Positions 18,873-23,415 of a stretch of 64,000 nucleotides of DNA are shown here, piece after piece (position 1 is the first letter of the stretch; each line of letters begins with the position of its first letter). The notes under the pieces were generated by a model, which was not told where the DNA came from, did no database searches, and saw only the letters and a program-made list of their open reading frames with translations. Source of the stretch: Thermoleophilia bacterium (lineage in GTDB: Bacteria; Actinomycetota; Thermoleophilia; Gaiellales; Gaiellaceae); contig JAHDVS010000006.1 in the NCBI GenBank assembly GCA_023382435.1, positions 1 to 64,000 on the forward strand, read 5' to 3'. Position numbers and translations under genes: made by a program.

Positions 18873-20075
18873 GTGTTCCACGATCGCGCACGCGTCGTCG
18901 CCCGGGGGGGCCGCGGCGGTGACGGAGCCCTCAGCTTTCGTCGCGAGAAGTACGTTCCGAGGGGTGGGCCCGACGGTGGTGACGGCGGCCGCGGCGGAGA
19001 CGTCGTGCTCGTCGCGGACGCCGATCTGCGCGACCTGTCGTTCCTCCGGGGGCGGACGGTGTTCGCGGCGCGGCGGGGTCGCCATGGCGAGGGGTCGAAC
19101 CGCCGAGGCGCTGACGGCGACGACGTTGTCTTGCGGGTTCCGGTGGGCACCCAGGTGCTCGACGCGGACGGAGGCCTCGTCGCCGACCTCGCCCACGAGG
19201 GCGCACGCGTCGTGCTCGCCGCAGGCGGGCGTGGCGGCTCGGGGAATCGCCGCTTCGCGACCCCGACGCGGCGTGCGCCGAGATTCGCCGAGCCCGGACT
19301 TCCCGGGGACGAGGTCGAGGTCGAGCTACGTCTCAAGCTCGTCGTCGACGCGGCCCTGCTCGGGTTCCCGAACGCCGGGAAGTCATCCCTGCTGCGCCGG
19401 ATCTCGAACGCGACCCCGAAGGTGGCCGACTACCCGTTCACGACGCTGCAGCCGGTGCTCGGCACGGTGCAGGCATCCGACGGGCGCCAGCTCGTCGTCG
19501 CCGACGTGCCGGGGCTGCTCGAAGGCGCGAGCGAAGGCGTCGGGCTCGGCGACGAGTTCCTCGCGCACCTCGAGCGGGCGCGGGTACTCGTCCACGTGAT
19601 CGACGCGTACGAAAGCGACCCGGTCGGACGGTTCCGGGCGATCGACCGCGAGCTGCGCGCCTATGGAGCCGGCCTCGCCGAACGACCCCAGATCGTGGTT
19701 CTGAACAAGGTCGATCTGCTTTCGGAGCCGCCGGAGCTCCGGCTCGGCGATCCCCGGATCCTCGCCACCGTGGCCGTGTCCGCCGTCACGGGCGCGGGGA
19801 TTCCCGAGCTGGCACGCGCTCTCTTCGAGCTGATCCCGGAGCCGGCGCCCGGCGCGGTCACCGCCGCTCCGGAGCTCGCCGACTTCCTCGTCTACCGTCC
19901 TCGCCCGCCGCGGCGCCGCACCTTCCGGGTCTTTCGCACCGACCGGGGCTTCCTCGTTACGGGTCGGGATGTCGGCGCCGCCAGCGAGGAGGAGATCGAG
20001 GCGGCCCTGCGCGCCGCGGGCGCCCGTCCGGGCGATGCGGTCGAGATCGGCGATCGCGAGCTGGAGCTCGCGTGA
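18873..20075 (+). CDS. obgE: Obg-family GTPase (ObgE/CgtA)
   Basis: Obg is an essential GTPase involved in 50S assembly and the stringent response. The 400-residue protein has the glycine-rich Obg fold at the N-terminus (ARGGRGGDGALSFRREKY), the G domain with P-loop GFPNAGKSS, DVPGLLEGASEG and NKVDL, and a C-terminal OCT domain (VYRPRPPRRRTFRVFRTD). The start is GTG 18873. It ends in a GTGA overlap with nadD. The OCT domain is present in many but not all Obg proteins. Confidence 0.96.
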   Translation: MFHDRARVVARGGRGGDGALSFRREKYVPRGGPDGGDGGRGGDVVLVADADLRDLSFLRGRTVFAARRGRHGEGSNRRGADGDDVVLRVPVGTQVLDADGGLVADLAHEGARVVLAAGGRGGSGNRRFATPTRRAPRFAEPGLPGDEVEVELRLKLVVDAALLGFPNAGKSSLLRRISNATPKVADYPFTTLQPVLGTVQASDGRQLVVADVPGLLEGASEGVGLGDEFLAHLERARVLVHVIDAYESDPVGRFRAIDRELRAYGAGLAERPQIVVLNKVDLLSEPPELRLGDPRILATVAVSAVTGAGIPELARALFELIPEPAPGAVTAAPELADFLVYRPRPPRRRTFRVFRTDRGFLVTGRDVGAASEEEIEAALRAAGARPGDAVEIGDRELELA

Positions 20076-20683
20076 CCGGTCTGCTGGGCGGTGCCTTCGA
20101 CCCGCCCCACAATGGTCATCTCGTGCTCGCCGACGAGGCGACCCGCCGCTTCCGGCTCGAGCGGCTGGTGGTCGTGGTCACCGGGGTTGCCCCGCACAAG
20201 GAGGTGGAGACCGACCCGGAGACGCGCTACGGGCTCGCGGTCGCCGCCTTCGCGGGCCGGCCCGGCGTCGAGGTGTCCCGCCACGAGCTCGACCGACCGG
20301 GCCCGTCGTACACGGTCGACACGGCGCGCTGGGCCGCGGATCGGTACGGGGACGCCATCTTCCTCGTGGGCGCGGACGAGCTCGCGAGCTTCCTCGACTG
20401 GAAGGATCCGGACGAGGTGCTGCGCCGCGTGCGGCTCGGCGTCGCCACGAGGCCCGGCTACCCGCGCGAGCTGCTCGACCCGGTGCTCGCGCGGCTCGAA
20501 CGTCCGGATCGGGTCGAGCTGTTCGAGATCCCCGAGCTGCCGATTTCCTCGACCGGGATCCGCGAGCGAGTCGCGCGCGGGCTCGCGATCGACGGGCTCG
20601 TTCCGCCCGCCGTGGCCGCGCTGATCGTGACGCGCGGCCTCTACCGACAGCTTGACCCGTGTCCGCCCGGGTCGCTAGGCTGA
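20072..20683 (+). CDS. nadD: Nicotinate-nucleotide adenylyltransferase
   Basis: NadD joins ATP and nicotinate mononucleotide to make deamido-NAD. The 203-residue protein begins TGLLGGAFDPPHNGHL, containing the nucleotidyltransferase GxFxPxHxGH motif, and has LPISSTGIRERVARG, the ISSTxIR ATP-binding signature, near the C-terminus. The start is GTG 20072, overlapping the obgE stop by 4 nt. rsfS follows after 31 bp, as in many bacteria where nadD and rsfS form an operon. Confidence 0.95.
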   Translation: MTGLLGGAFDPPHNGHLVLADEATRRFRLERLVVVVTGVAPHKEVETDPETRYGLAVAAFAGRPGVEVSRHELDRPGPSYTVDTARWAADRYGDAIFLVGADELASFLDWKDPDEVLRRVRLGVATRPGYPRELLDPVLARLERPDRVELFEIPELPISSTGIRERVARGLAIDGLVPPAVAALIVTRGLYRQLDPCPPGSLG

Positions 20684-20714
20684 GCCGGGAACCTCCGAGG
20701 AGACACGAACCGCC

Positions 20715-21068
20715 CTGACGCCGCTCGAGCTGGCCCGCCGAATCGCCCACCTTGCCGGGGAGAAGCTCGCGCAGGACGTGGTCATCCTCGACATGCGCCC
20801 GGCCGTCGCCTACACGGACTTCTTCGTCGTCTGCACCGGCCGCAACCCCCGTCAGGTGGCTGCGATCTACGAGGAGGTGCGGGAGGCCGTGAAGCGCGAG
20901 ACAGGCGTCGTGCCACGCCACGTGGCCGGCGAACGGGAGTCGACCTGGGTTCTCGCCGACTACCTCGACGTCGTCCTGCACGTGTTCACGCCCGACGCGC
21001 GCGGCTACTACCGGCTCGAGGAGCTCTGGGGCGACCTGCCGTCGGTCGAGGTCGCCGCCGGCGTGTAG
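20715..21068 (+). CDS. rsfS: Ribosomal silencing factor RsfS
   Basis: RsfS binds L14 and blocks subunit joining when nutrients are low. The full product is 117 residues (TPLELARRIAHLAGEKLAQD, then VVILDMRPAVAYTDFFVVCT), with the family YTDFFVV core and a C-terminal YRLEELW block. The nearest standard start, GTG 20778, would remove the whole first helix. No ATG, GTG or TTG lies upstream in frame, but CTG 20715 does, 11 nt after a gaggaga ribosome binding site (20697-20703). I therefore call a CTG start. A TAGGCT hexamer at 20676-20681 could serve as a local promoter. Confidence 0.9.
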   Translation: MTPLELARRIAHLAGEKLAQDVVILDMRPAVAYTDFFVVCTGRNPRQVAAIYEEVREAVKRETGVVPRHVAGERESTWVLADYLDVVLHVFTPDARGYYRLEELWGDLPSVEVAAGV

Positions 21069-21099
21069 GGCGTCGTCAGACGAGGCAACGTCCGATAGA

Positions 21100-21113
21100 C
21101 GAACCAGTGTTCG
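21100..21113. promoter_or_regulatory. Likely LexA (SOS) box
   Basis: CGAAC-cagt-GTTCG is a perfect palindrome with a 4-bp centre, the form of the SOS box recognised by LexA in Gram-positive bacteria and actinobacteria (CGAAC-N4-GTTCG). It ends 3 bp before ATG 21117 of the nuclease-like gene. There is no ribosome binding site between, so the box would cover the transcription start of a leaderless or nearly leaderless mRNA. Confidence 0.65.
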
Positions 21114-21116
21114 TTC

Positions 21117-21560
21117 ATGCTCTCTTCCGCCCGAAAAGGGGCGATCGCTGAGTCGGCAATCGCTCACGCTGCGACGAAGCTGGGGATCGTCGTTGCGAAG
21201 CCCCTGACGCCAGAGCGGTATGACCTGATCTTCGACCTTGGCGCACGTCTCCTGCGCCTGCAGTGCAAGTGGGCTGCGCGCCGTGGCGGCGTCGTCATCG
21301 TCCGTTGTTACTCGTCGAGCCGGGCAAGGGACGGACTCGTGCGGCGCTTCTACTCCGAGCACGAGATCGATGCGATGGCTGCCTACTGCCCGGACACGGA
21401 GCGCTGCTATTTCCTGACTGCCTCCTGGATCGATGGTCGCCAAAGCGTGCAGCTTCGCGTCGAGCCCGCGCGCAACAACCAGGCGGCGGGAGTCGTGAGA
21501 GCAGACGTGTTCGAGTTCGAGGCACTAGACTGGGGGAGTCTGACGAGCACGGGGCCATAG
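21117..21560 (+). CDS. PD-(D/E)XK nuclease-like protein, probably SOS-controlled
   Basis: The 147-residue product resembles group I intron endonuclease-like PD-(D/E)XK proteins. KGAIAESAIAHAATKLG gives the helix with the conserved Glu, YDLIFDLG supplies the catalytic Asp, and LQCKWA supplies the Q-x-K end of the motif. It is a stand-alone domain with no visible DNA-binding part. The start is ATG 21117 directly behind a LexA-type palindrome. The stop lies inside tRNA-Ala, a 10-nt overlap on the same strand. Local G+C (about 63% in the first 60 coding bases) is below that of the neighbours, which suggests acquisition. The substrate is unknown. Confidence 0.7.
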   Translation: MLSSARKGAIAESAIAHAATKLGIVVAKPLTPERYDLIFDLGARLLRLQCKWAARRGGVVIVRCYSSSRARDGLVRRFYSEHEIDAMAAYCPDTERCYFLTASWIDGRQSVQLRVEPARNNQAAGVVRADVFEFEALDWGSLTSTGP

Positions 21561-21623
21561 CTCAGCTGGGAGAGCGTCTGGCTGGCAGCCAGAAGGTCGG
21601 GGGTTCGAATCCCCCTGGCTCCA
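21551..21623 (+). tRNA. tRNA-Ala, anticodon GGC
   Basis: A complete 73-nt cloverleaf can be drawn. The acceptor arms are GGGGCCA and TGGCTCC with one G-T pair. The D arm is GCTC/GAGC. The anticodon stem is TCTGG/CCAGA with loop CTGGCAG, giving anticodon GGC. The T arm is GGGGG/CCCCC with loop TTCGAAT. The discriminator is A and the CCA end is not encoded. It decodes GCC, the favoured alanine codon at this base composition. Its first 10 bases overlap the end of the upstream nuclease-like gene. Confidence 0.97.
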
Positions 21624-21834
21624 TACCCGTTTCGGCCGTGGCTTACGGGCTTTCGCCGCGGAGGCGGCGGCTGGCTACGATCGGCGGCTGGGGCGCCGTT
21701 CAAGTGCTCTCCGGCGCCGAGCGAGGCCGCGTTGCTGCTGCACGACCACCTGGTCGCGCTGGTTCGGCCGCTGATCGTTCGCCCCGTCGCGGTTCATCCT
21801 CAACAACCGCGGCCTCCTCGCCGATGCAGGAGGT

Positions 21835-23415
21835 GTGAGCCGCCTTCGTTCCGGCACCGTCGTCGCCGTCGTCGTGGCACTGCTCGCGACCGCGGCCGCC
21901 GTCGCGGCCGCCGAGAGCTATCGCAGGGACGCCGAGCACCACACGCTGCAGGGGCGCGCGGTGGCGCTGTCCGAGCTCCTCGGCTCCTTCGCCCGCGAGA
22001 TCGAGTCCGCGCTTGGCGCGGCCGGGGCGATCGCCGCCGTCGTCGGCTCCGATCCGTCGCGGTTCGCGGCGGCCGTCGAGCCCCAGCTCGATCGTGGCGT
22101 GCTCGGCAACCTCACTCTGCTTCGCGTCGGTTCCGGCGCGGCCGAGCCGCTCGCCCACGCGGGTGCGGGGCGTCCGCTGCTTCTCGAATCGCTCGAACGG
22201 GCCGATCTCGAGCGCCTGCGCGCGGTCGCGGGAGACGCGCGTCCGGCCGTGGTCAAGCTCGCGACCGTGGGCGGGTTGCGCGTGCTCGCAATCGCGGTGG
22301 CGGCCGGGGAGGGGACCGTCGTCTATGCGGAGAGCCCGATCTCGATGCTCGCGGCGGCGTTCCCCGCGGCCGGGTCGGAGGGAATCGACTTCGCGCTCTA
22401 CCTGGGCGCGCGGGCCGCGCCGGAGACCCTGCTCGTCGCCTCCACGGAGGAGCTGCCGCTGCGCGGGTCGCTCGCGACGCAGCCGACCGAGCTGGCGAGC
22501 GCCCCGGCCCTCCTCGTCGTTCGCTCCCGGGAGCCGCTGACGGAGGCCCTGACCTCATCGCTCCCGTGGCTGGTCGCGCTGGTCGGCGCCGCTCTCACGG
22601 CCGTCGCCGGTGGGATCATCGAGCTGCGCGGCCGCCGGGTGCGTGCCGAGGCTGCGCGTCGCCAGCTCGTCGAGCAGAACGAGCGCCTGCGCGAGGTCGA
22701 CCGGATGAAGGACGAGCTCGTCGCCGTTGCCTCGCACGAGTTGCGAACCCCGTTGACGTCGATTCTCGGCTACGTGAGCGTGCTCCAGGACGAGGGGGAC
22801 GAGCTGACCGACGAGCACCGCCGCTTCGTGGGCGTGATCGAGCGTAACGCGAAGCGCCTGCTCGGCCTCGTCGGAGATCTCCTGTTCGTGGCGCGGGCCG
22901 AGGCAGGAGGGCTCCGGCTGGAGCGGGAGCCGGTCGATTTGCGGACGATCGTGGAGGAGTGCCTGGAGACGCACCGGCCCGGTGCCGAGGGCGCCGGGGT
23001 GATGCTCGACCTCTCGGCCCGCGACGACGCCCCCGTCATCGACGGAGACCCCGACCGCCTGGCCCAGCTCGTGGAGAACCTGGTGTCGAACGCGATCAAG
23101 TTCATGCCCGGCGGTGGGCGGCTCGGCGTGCGCCTCGCGAGCGAGGGCGGCTGCGCGGTGCTCGAGGTCGAGGACACGGGGCTCGGCATCCCGGCCGGGG
23201 AGCAGGAGCATCTGTTCGAGCGTTTCTTCCGCTCCTCGACGGCGCGCGCCGCGGCGATCCAGGGTACCGGCCTCGGCCTCACGATTGCGAAGGCGATCGT
23301 CGAGGCGCACGGCGGCACGATCTCTTTCACGAGCGAGGAAGGCGTCGGCACCGTGTTTCGGGTCGGGCTGCCGCTCCGCGTTGTCGCGCCTGCTCCGTTC
23401 GTGCTCGCCGGCTGA
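21835..23415 (+). CDS. Orphan membrane sensor histidine kinase
   Basis: This is a sensor kinase of 526 residues. It has a membrane span at about residues 8-27, an external sensing domain of about 210 residues without a recognisable fold, and a second span at about 243-262. A HisKA domain follows with phospho-acceptor His301 (ASHELRTPLT), then an ATPase domain with N-box NLVSNAIKF, DTGLGI and GTGLGLTIAK. The start is GTG 21835 with an aggaggt ribosome binding site. No response regulator gene lies beside it, so the partner must be elsewhere. The 211-bp stretch upstream, back to the tRNA gene, holds nothing I can identify. Confidence 0.88.
   Translation: MSRLRSGTVVAVVVALLATAAAVAAAESYRRDAEHHTLQGRAVALSELLGSFAREIESALGAAGAIAAVVGSDPSRFAAAVEPQLDRGVLGNLTLLRVGSGAAEPLAHAGAGRPLLLESLERADLERLRAVAGDARPAVVKLATVGGLRVLAIAVAAGEGTVVYAESPISMLAAAFPAAGSEGIDFALYLGARAAPETLLVASTEELPLRGSLATQPTELASAPALLVVRSREPLTEALTSSLPWLVALVGAALTAVAGGIIELRGRRVRAEAARRQLVEQNERLREVDRMKDELVAVASHELRTPLTSILGYVSVLQDEGDELTDEHRRFVGVIERNAKRLLGLVGDLLFVARAEAGGLRLEREPVDLRTIVEECLETHRPGAEGAGVMLDLSARDDAPVIDGDPDRLAQLVENLVSNAIKFMPGGGRLGVRLASEGGCAVLEVEDTGLGIPAGEQEHLFERFFRSSTARAAAIQGTGLGLTIAKAIVEAHGGTISFTSEEGVGTVFRVGLPLRVVAPAPFVLAG

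Follow-up and report, generated by a model that had tools for sequence, protein, structure and literature searches.

A chromosomal I-Ssp6803I-type endonuclease gene beside tRNA-Ala(GGC), with LexA boxes and rewritten anticodon stems among its relatives

The 64,000-nucleotide stretch of Thermoleophilia DNA analyzed here (the window) carries, directly before tRNA-Ala(GGC), a gene whose product is, by sequence and predicted fold, a member of the I-Ssp6803I-type (PDDEXK_5) homing endonuclease family. Comparison across genomes associates such genes, at two tRNA loci, with recoding of the linked and putative target copy of the tRNA, although the window itself lacks the recoding. We consider it somewhat probable that the gene specifies a free-standing homing endonuclease aimed at the tRNA anticodon arm and travelling with a recoded, resistant tRNA; within that model, we infer that the enzyme cuts the arm, that recoding confers immunity, that the gene homes, and that SOS induces it in the cell. 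More tentatively, and with rather less than even confidence, we propose a widespread natural cleave-and-rescue element, in which an SOS-controlled nuclease would destroy ordinary alleles of essential tRNAs, ride with an uncuttable recoded stem, and have driven the evolution of anticodon stems in tRNA-Ala and other tRNAs across the Actinomycetota.

The nuclease gene and its tRNA neighbors

The nuclease gene occupies positions 21117 to 21560 of the forward strand and codes for 147 amino acids. Before it on the same strand are nadD (20072 to 20683), recognized from its open reading frame, and rsfS (20736 to 21068), conserved left neighbors with the same order in relatives that lack the homing endonuclease gene; after it comes tRNA-Ala(GGC) (21551 to 21623, forward strand), which is identified by tRNA and Rfam annotation, is uninterrupted, and is the single copy found in the genome. 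The nuclease gene is free-standing in that it lies outside introns and inteins, at a site between conserved genes where some genomes have it and others do not. Its last 10 bases are the first 10 of the tRNA, and its TAG stop codon coincides with tRNA nucleotides 8 to 10, an overlap that a first-pass annotation of the window had read correctly, as it had the low G+C content of the gene (64.6% compared with 72.0% for the window, and equally low in just 1.1% of 441-bp stretches), which recurs in 70 of 71 relatives.

That annotation had also described a small PD-(D/E)XK protein, and the assignment holds. The protein matches Pfam PF11645 (PDDEXK_5) at 9.2e-26 and 91 bits (curated cut-off, 26.1), and a search of PDB sequences returns a single match, 2OST (I-Ssp6803I), at 6e-8 with the single sequence, strengthening to 2e-22 with a 66-sequence profile. 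An AlphaFold2 model (pLDDT 95) used with Foldseek ranks 2OST first (E 4.3e-10, probability 1.00, TM 0.76 over 146 columns), with an archaeal Holliday junction resolvase as a distant runner-up (7.5e-4). The catalytic-type residues E12, D36, Q49, and K51, a PD-(D/E)XK-type site with QxK, are all in the window protein and are found in 69, 76, 77, and 76 of 77 relatives, respectively, the Asp and Lys that the earlier assignment took to be catalytic among them. The unit is not an undescribed nuclease, as had been proposed, but one of the I-Ssp6803I type.

Relatives are present in 104 of 399 genomes of the class (26%). Most of these genomes are draft assemblies from metagenomes, each species is represented by a single genome, and there is some contamination among them. 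A tRNA gene adjoins the nuclease at 88 of 90 class loci, and the remaining two stop at contig edges. The anticipated association with tRNA-Ala in related genomes is seen at 71 class loci, where tRNA-Ala(GGC) is downstream and on the same strand as the nuclease; at the other loci the nuclease adjoins tRNA-Arg(CCG), tRNA-Ala(TGC), to which it is mostly convergent, or tRNA-Thr(TGT), which is mostly upstream and divergent. When the whole Pfam family was sampled across the phylum, 29 of 30 loci had tRNA genes close by, with Ala(GGC), Arg(TCT), Thr(CGT), Thr(GGT) clusters, and Pro(GGG) as the neighbors. One locus (L096) has a tandem pair of nuclease copies before tRNA-Ala(TGC), about 31 to 35% identical to that of the window. 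In one metagenome genome, a small contig shares ~99% identity with its counterpart in a different genus (L205 versus L208), a probable contamination.

I-Ssp6803I is described as the product of a gene within a group I intron in Synechocystis tRNA-fMet, with specificity for the anticodon region (PMC1995217). The window gene resembles it in family by sequence, in fold, in catalytic-type residues, and in having a tRNA gene as its locus. It differs in that the I-Ssp6803I gene lies inside a self-splicing intron that interrupts its target, whereas the window gene has no intron around it, adjoins an intact tRNA, is preceded by a LexA-box promoter of its own, and has relatives in which the stem of the neighboring tRNA is often rewritten. 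The intron-encoded state reported for I-Ssp6803I (PMC1995217) could suggest that the window gene is the decayed remnant of a group I intron that once interrupted the tRNA and has since lost its ribozyme, but there is no Rfam match to a group I intron in positions 20600 to 22000, the gene lies outside the tRNA, the tRNA and its promoter are intact, and the same arrangement is kept in about 70 loci with intact active sites; we regard such a relic as highly improbable.

Transcription of the nuclease and of the tRNA

The palindrome CGAACCAGTGTTCG at positions 21100 to 21113 of the forward strand is an exact match to CGAAC-N4-GTTCG, the sole exact copy within the window, and is separated from the nuclease ATG at 21117 by TTC (3 bp), as first annotated. 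It is also, as had been supposed, the LexA (SOS) box of this lineage: the window's own genome has eight exact boxes, compared with one for the pattern read backwards, including those at lexA, uvrA, and ssb (named from their translations), and lexA bears the box in 25 of 26 genomes tested. The nuclease gene thus has a box identical to those of the actinobacterial LexA/SOS regulon, but here the box precedes a putatively mobile nuclease gene instead of one for repair. An exact box is present just upstream of the nuclease start in 25 of 72 tRNA-Ala(GGC) loci, against a background of 4 in 280 kb of other sequence at these loci. By family, these are 3 of 33 loci in f1, to which the window belongs (the exact box is missing from the other 30), and 11 of 24, 6 of 7, and 5 of 8 in three others; upstream of the Thr and Ala(TGC) relatives there is no exact box. 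Judged from these motif counts, LexA control of the nuclease genes is probable, yet not universal. Loss of the nuclease box along with a change in the host LexA motif was considered and rejected, as lexA keeps the same box there.

Four loci of one genus (L033, L037, L059, and L107) have a palindrome, GTTCTC-N6-GAGAAC, over the nuclease -10, and lexA in these genomes still has CGAAC-N4-GTTCG; the palindrome is a candidate site for a second repressor. At L004/L005 (own genome, C7:76320-76357) two exact LexA boxes lie 10 bp apart, upstream of other genes.

The LexA box in the window overlaps the -10 region of a promoter-like sequence, GTCCG-N10-CAGTGT (21090 to 21110, forward strand, with the -10-like part at 21105 to 21110), which is recognized from recurrence of the motif in relatives. 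The motif GTCCG-N10-TAnnnT (window and L020-L107) recurs ahead of the nuclease genes, including those without a LexA box, and a strict version of it is present in 35 of 89 relatives, whereas 0.01 per 72 nt is the background; its spacing differs from that of an ordinary -35/-10 pair. The -10-like part ends ~6 to 7 nt before the nuclease start codon (6 bp before the ATG in the window), which suggests, with the transcription start predicted from the motif, that the nuclease messages are leaderless.

The tRNA, for its part, probably retains its own promoter, because TAnnnT is found 14 to 32 bp before it whether or not the nuclease is present (62 of 63 loci with the gene and 38 of 39 without it, compared with 1 each in a control stretch). 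In filled loci this element falls inside the nuclease coding sequence, and in the window the probable -10 is TAGACT (21526 to 21531, forward strand), recognized by TAnnnT recurrence and located within the 3' coding end of the nuclease gene. The idea that DNA damage must drive transcription of the tRNA is not supported by this result. A second claim, that translation of the nuclease message and maturation of the tRNA exclude each other, is likewise not supported as an obligatory competition where the tRNA probably has its own promoter. An RNase P effect on the nuclease message is possible: among 54 full-length nuclease ORFs, 49 reach the tRNA 5' end before any stop codon, so that RNase P cleavage would yield a stopless message and may restrict nuclease expression. 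For T4 segB and segG, it is RNase E processing that is described as possibly limiting expression (PMC2988022).

The first-pass annotation had combined these elements into a host nuclease for DNA damage, with an output coupled through RNase P to the maturation of tRNA-Ala. The LexA box is real and the missing stop codons are consistent with such a role, but the protein is closest, in both sequence and structure, to a homing endonuclease that acts on tRNA genes, the nuclease is confined to a minority of class genomes, the tRNA appears to have its own promoter, and the LexA box is absent from many relatives; we hold this role to be quite unlikely. The earlier interpretation is only partly supported, and it missed both the kinship with tRNA-gene homing endonucleases and the recoded stems.

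Anticodon stems beside the nuclease

The presumed kind of target is the anticodon stem-loop, a role assigned by analogy with I-Ssp6803I. In the window it reads TCTGG-C-TGGCA-G-CCAGA (21577 to 21593, forward strand), the usual (default) arm of family f1, with the default defined from the same data as those tested. The f1 tRNA-Ala(GGC) stem is nondefault in 24 of 28 genomes with an intact nuclease compared with 9 of 28 without gene or scar (Fisher p=9.6e-5), and stem entropy is 4.17 bits with the gene (21 kinds in 33) and 1.68 bits without it (7 in 28). Permutation of stem against nuclease presence within genera gives p=0.014. Almost all of the stem changes are fully compensated, the 32/38 pair included. 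The C and G at 32/38 of the default arm (window positions 21582 and 21588) become A/T or G/C jointly with the stem in nuclease-bearing genomes.

Reading these changes as immunity is weakened by the variation of other tRNA stems between lineages, by recoded stems in some gene-free genomes and default stems in some carriers, and by the description of free-standing enzymes as often cutting at a distance from their own genes (PMC2988022). In its favor, T-stem diversity is independent of nuclease presence (entropy in f1 of 2.12 with the gene and 2.02 without), acceptor stems keep the form typical of their lineage, and tRNA-Ala(TGC), with a nuclease gene that is convergent and not upstream, shows the effect again. 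At this second locus, families f8 and f10 have a rewritten stem in 11 of 11 genomes with the nuclease and 12 of 53 without (p=1.8e-6), and f10 by itself in 4 of 4 and 2 of 29 (p=3.7e-4), counts in which nuclease presence derives partly from partial matches (G248, G288, and G356) and the G182 arm is taken from L085. In the same genomes there is almost no variation in tRNA-Ala(CGC), a gene beside which no class relative was found. Between nearest same-state neighbors at a distance of <0.6 on a host tree of flanking proteins, the anticodon stem differs in 11 of 11 comparisons with the nuclease and 3 of 10 without, and the T-stem in 5 of 11 and 2 of 10, respectively. An independent-pairs test on the tree gives 4.4 versus 0.6, in the expected direction, with few pairs and little power (median p 0.22).

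The window's own tRNA-Ala(GGC) has the default stem, as do three other intact carriers. With an intact gene alongside, the enzyme would have to aim at a different target, lack activity, or be evaded by other means, and the combination is the weakest point of the homing and immunity model. The nine gene-free genomes with nondefault stems may include cases of gene loss without a scar.

Three further proposals were set aside. Import of a whole foreign tRNA as the source of rewritten stems is disfavored, because the acceptor sequence is still GGGGCC(A/G), with GGGCCCA in a single genus. The presence of two tRNA-Ala(GGC) copies in G165, G189, and G207 was dropped as evidence for self-immunity because contig G189:C45 matches a contig from a different genus at ~99% identity and the other two genomes may be strain mixtures. 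The tRNA-Thr(TGT) gene was dropped as a third replicate, its stems being too diverse for a default and nuclease detection too patchy.

Gain, loss, and a proposed homing cycle

Gene-free relatives retain nadD-rsfS-tRNA-Ala(GGC) with little or no extra sequence, and the distance from the end of rsfS to the tRNA is as short as 25 to 85 bp in L109, L111, L118, L120, L123, L125, L126, and L143, which lack the homing endonuclease gene. In gene-free L114, L122, L127, L128, L138, and L142, tblastn finds remaining C-terminal codons of a lost nuclease gene, and with a weak match in L113 the scars total six to seven. Nuclease presence is patchy, with at least 18 state changes on a 53-tip tree, and the empty, filled, and scarred sites look like repeated gain and loss of the gene. 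In comparisons between genera, there is no pair in which nuclease identity is clearly above that of the flanking genes; recent long-range transfer is thus not seen, and we set it aside.

We propose that an I-Ssp6803I-type homing endonuclease gene was inserted between rsfS and tRNA-Ala(GGC), and that its product would cut the palindromic anticodon arm of tRNA-Ala(GGC) genes matching its target; the arm is a DNA palindrome because it specifies an RNA hairpin, and would suit an oligomeric enzyme. Carrier chromosomes would be safe because the adjoining tRNA has a different, compensated anticodon stem, with the base pairing of the recoded stem keeping the tRNA working. Repair of the break in a naive chromosome would copy the nuclease gene and the resistant tRNA as one cassette, a form of 'intronless homing.' LexA would repress the leaderless promoter, such that the nuclease would be made when DNA damage has also raised RecA, and, as no stop codon precedes the tRNA, RNase P processing may lower expression further.

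The nearest parallel among free-standing enzymes is SegB of phages T4 and T6, which is likewise beside, and aimed at, a tRNA region; in T6, microhomology is reported between the 3' end of the segB gene and the 5' end of a tRNA (PMC13096335). SegB is, however, a phage-borne GIY-YIG enzyme of unrelated fold that cuts a tRNA intergenic region, and the available text of two accounts describes neither recoded tRNA stems nor LexA control for it (PMC13096335, PMC2988022). Synthetic 'cleave and rescue' gene drives also link a nuclease to a recoded, uncuttable copy of an essential target, but these are engineered and in eukaryotes, whereas the window and its relatives are natural and bacterial, and here the linkage is an inferred one only.

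Free-standing homing endonucleases aimed at tRNA genes are already known, from phages. In the literature searched, mostly outside subscription journals, we found no report of chromosomal PDDEXK_5 genes linked to tRNAs, of homing endonucleases under LexA control, or of recoded stems; a chromosomal bacterial family at essential tRNA genes, often with predicted LexA control and with rewritten anticodon stems, does not appear there. If the homing model is correct, it would explain abrupt changes of the anticodon stem between close relatives in otherwise conserved bacterial tRNAs and add a naturally occurring equivalent to the engineered cleave-and-rescue drives; the specificity code of an I-Ssp6803I-type enzyme could then be read from the many enzyme/stem pairs.

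The same components could instead form a domesticated defense or restriction-like unit, in which the recoded tRNA acts as the 'modification' and the nuclease cuts phage or integrative DNA carrying an ordinary tRNA-Ala gene. tRNA genes are common on phages and integrative elements, and both LexA control and long-term conservation of the active site at ~50% identity are consistent with such a unit; patchy presence with scars resembles the gain and loss of a selfish gene, however, and relatives are absent from plasmids and only distant in phages, and we consider a defense unit unlikely. Plasmid searches returned no relatives, no match in a viral contig was confirmed, and the phage relatives are distant only (29 to 36% identity); a plasmid- or phage-borne gene was rejected on these results. 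These phage records (H1-H14), mostly annotated as hypothetical, are from large phages of Klebsiella, Salmonella, Enterococcus, and Synechococcus.
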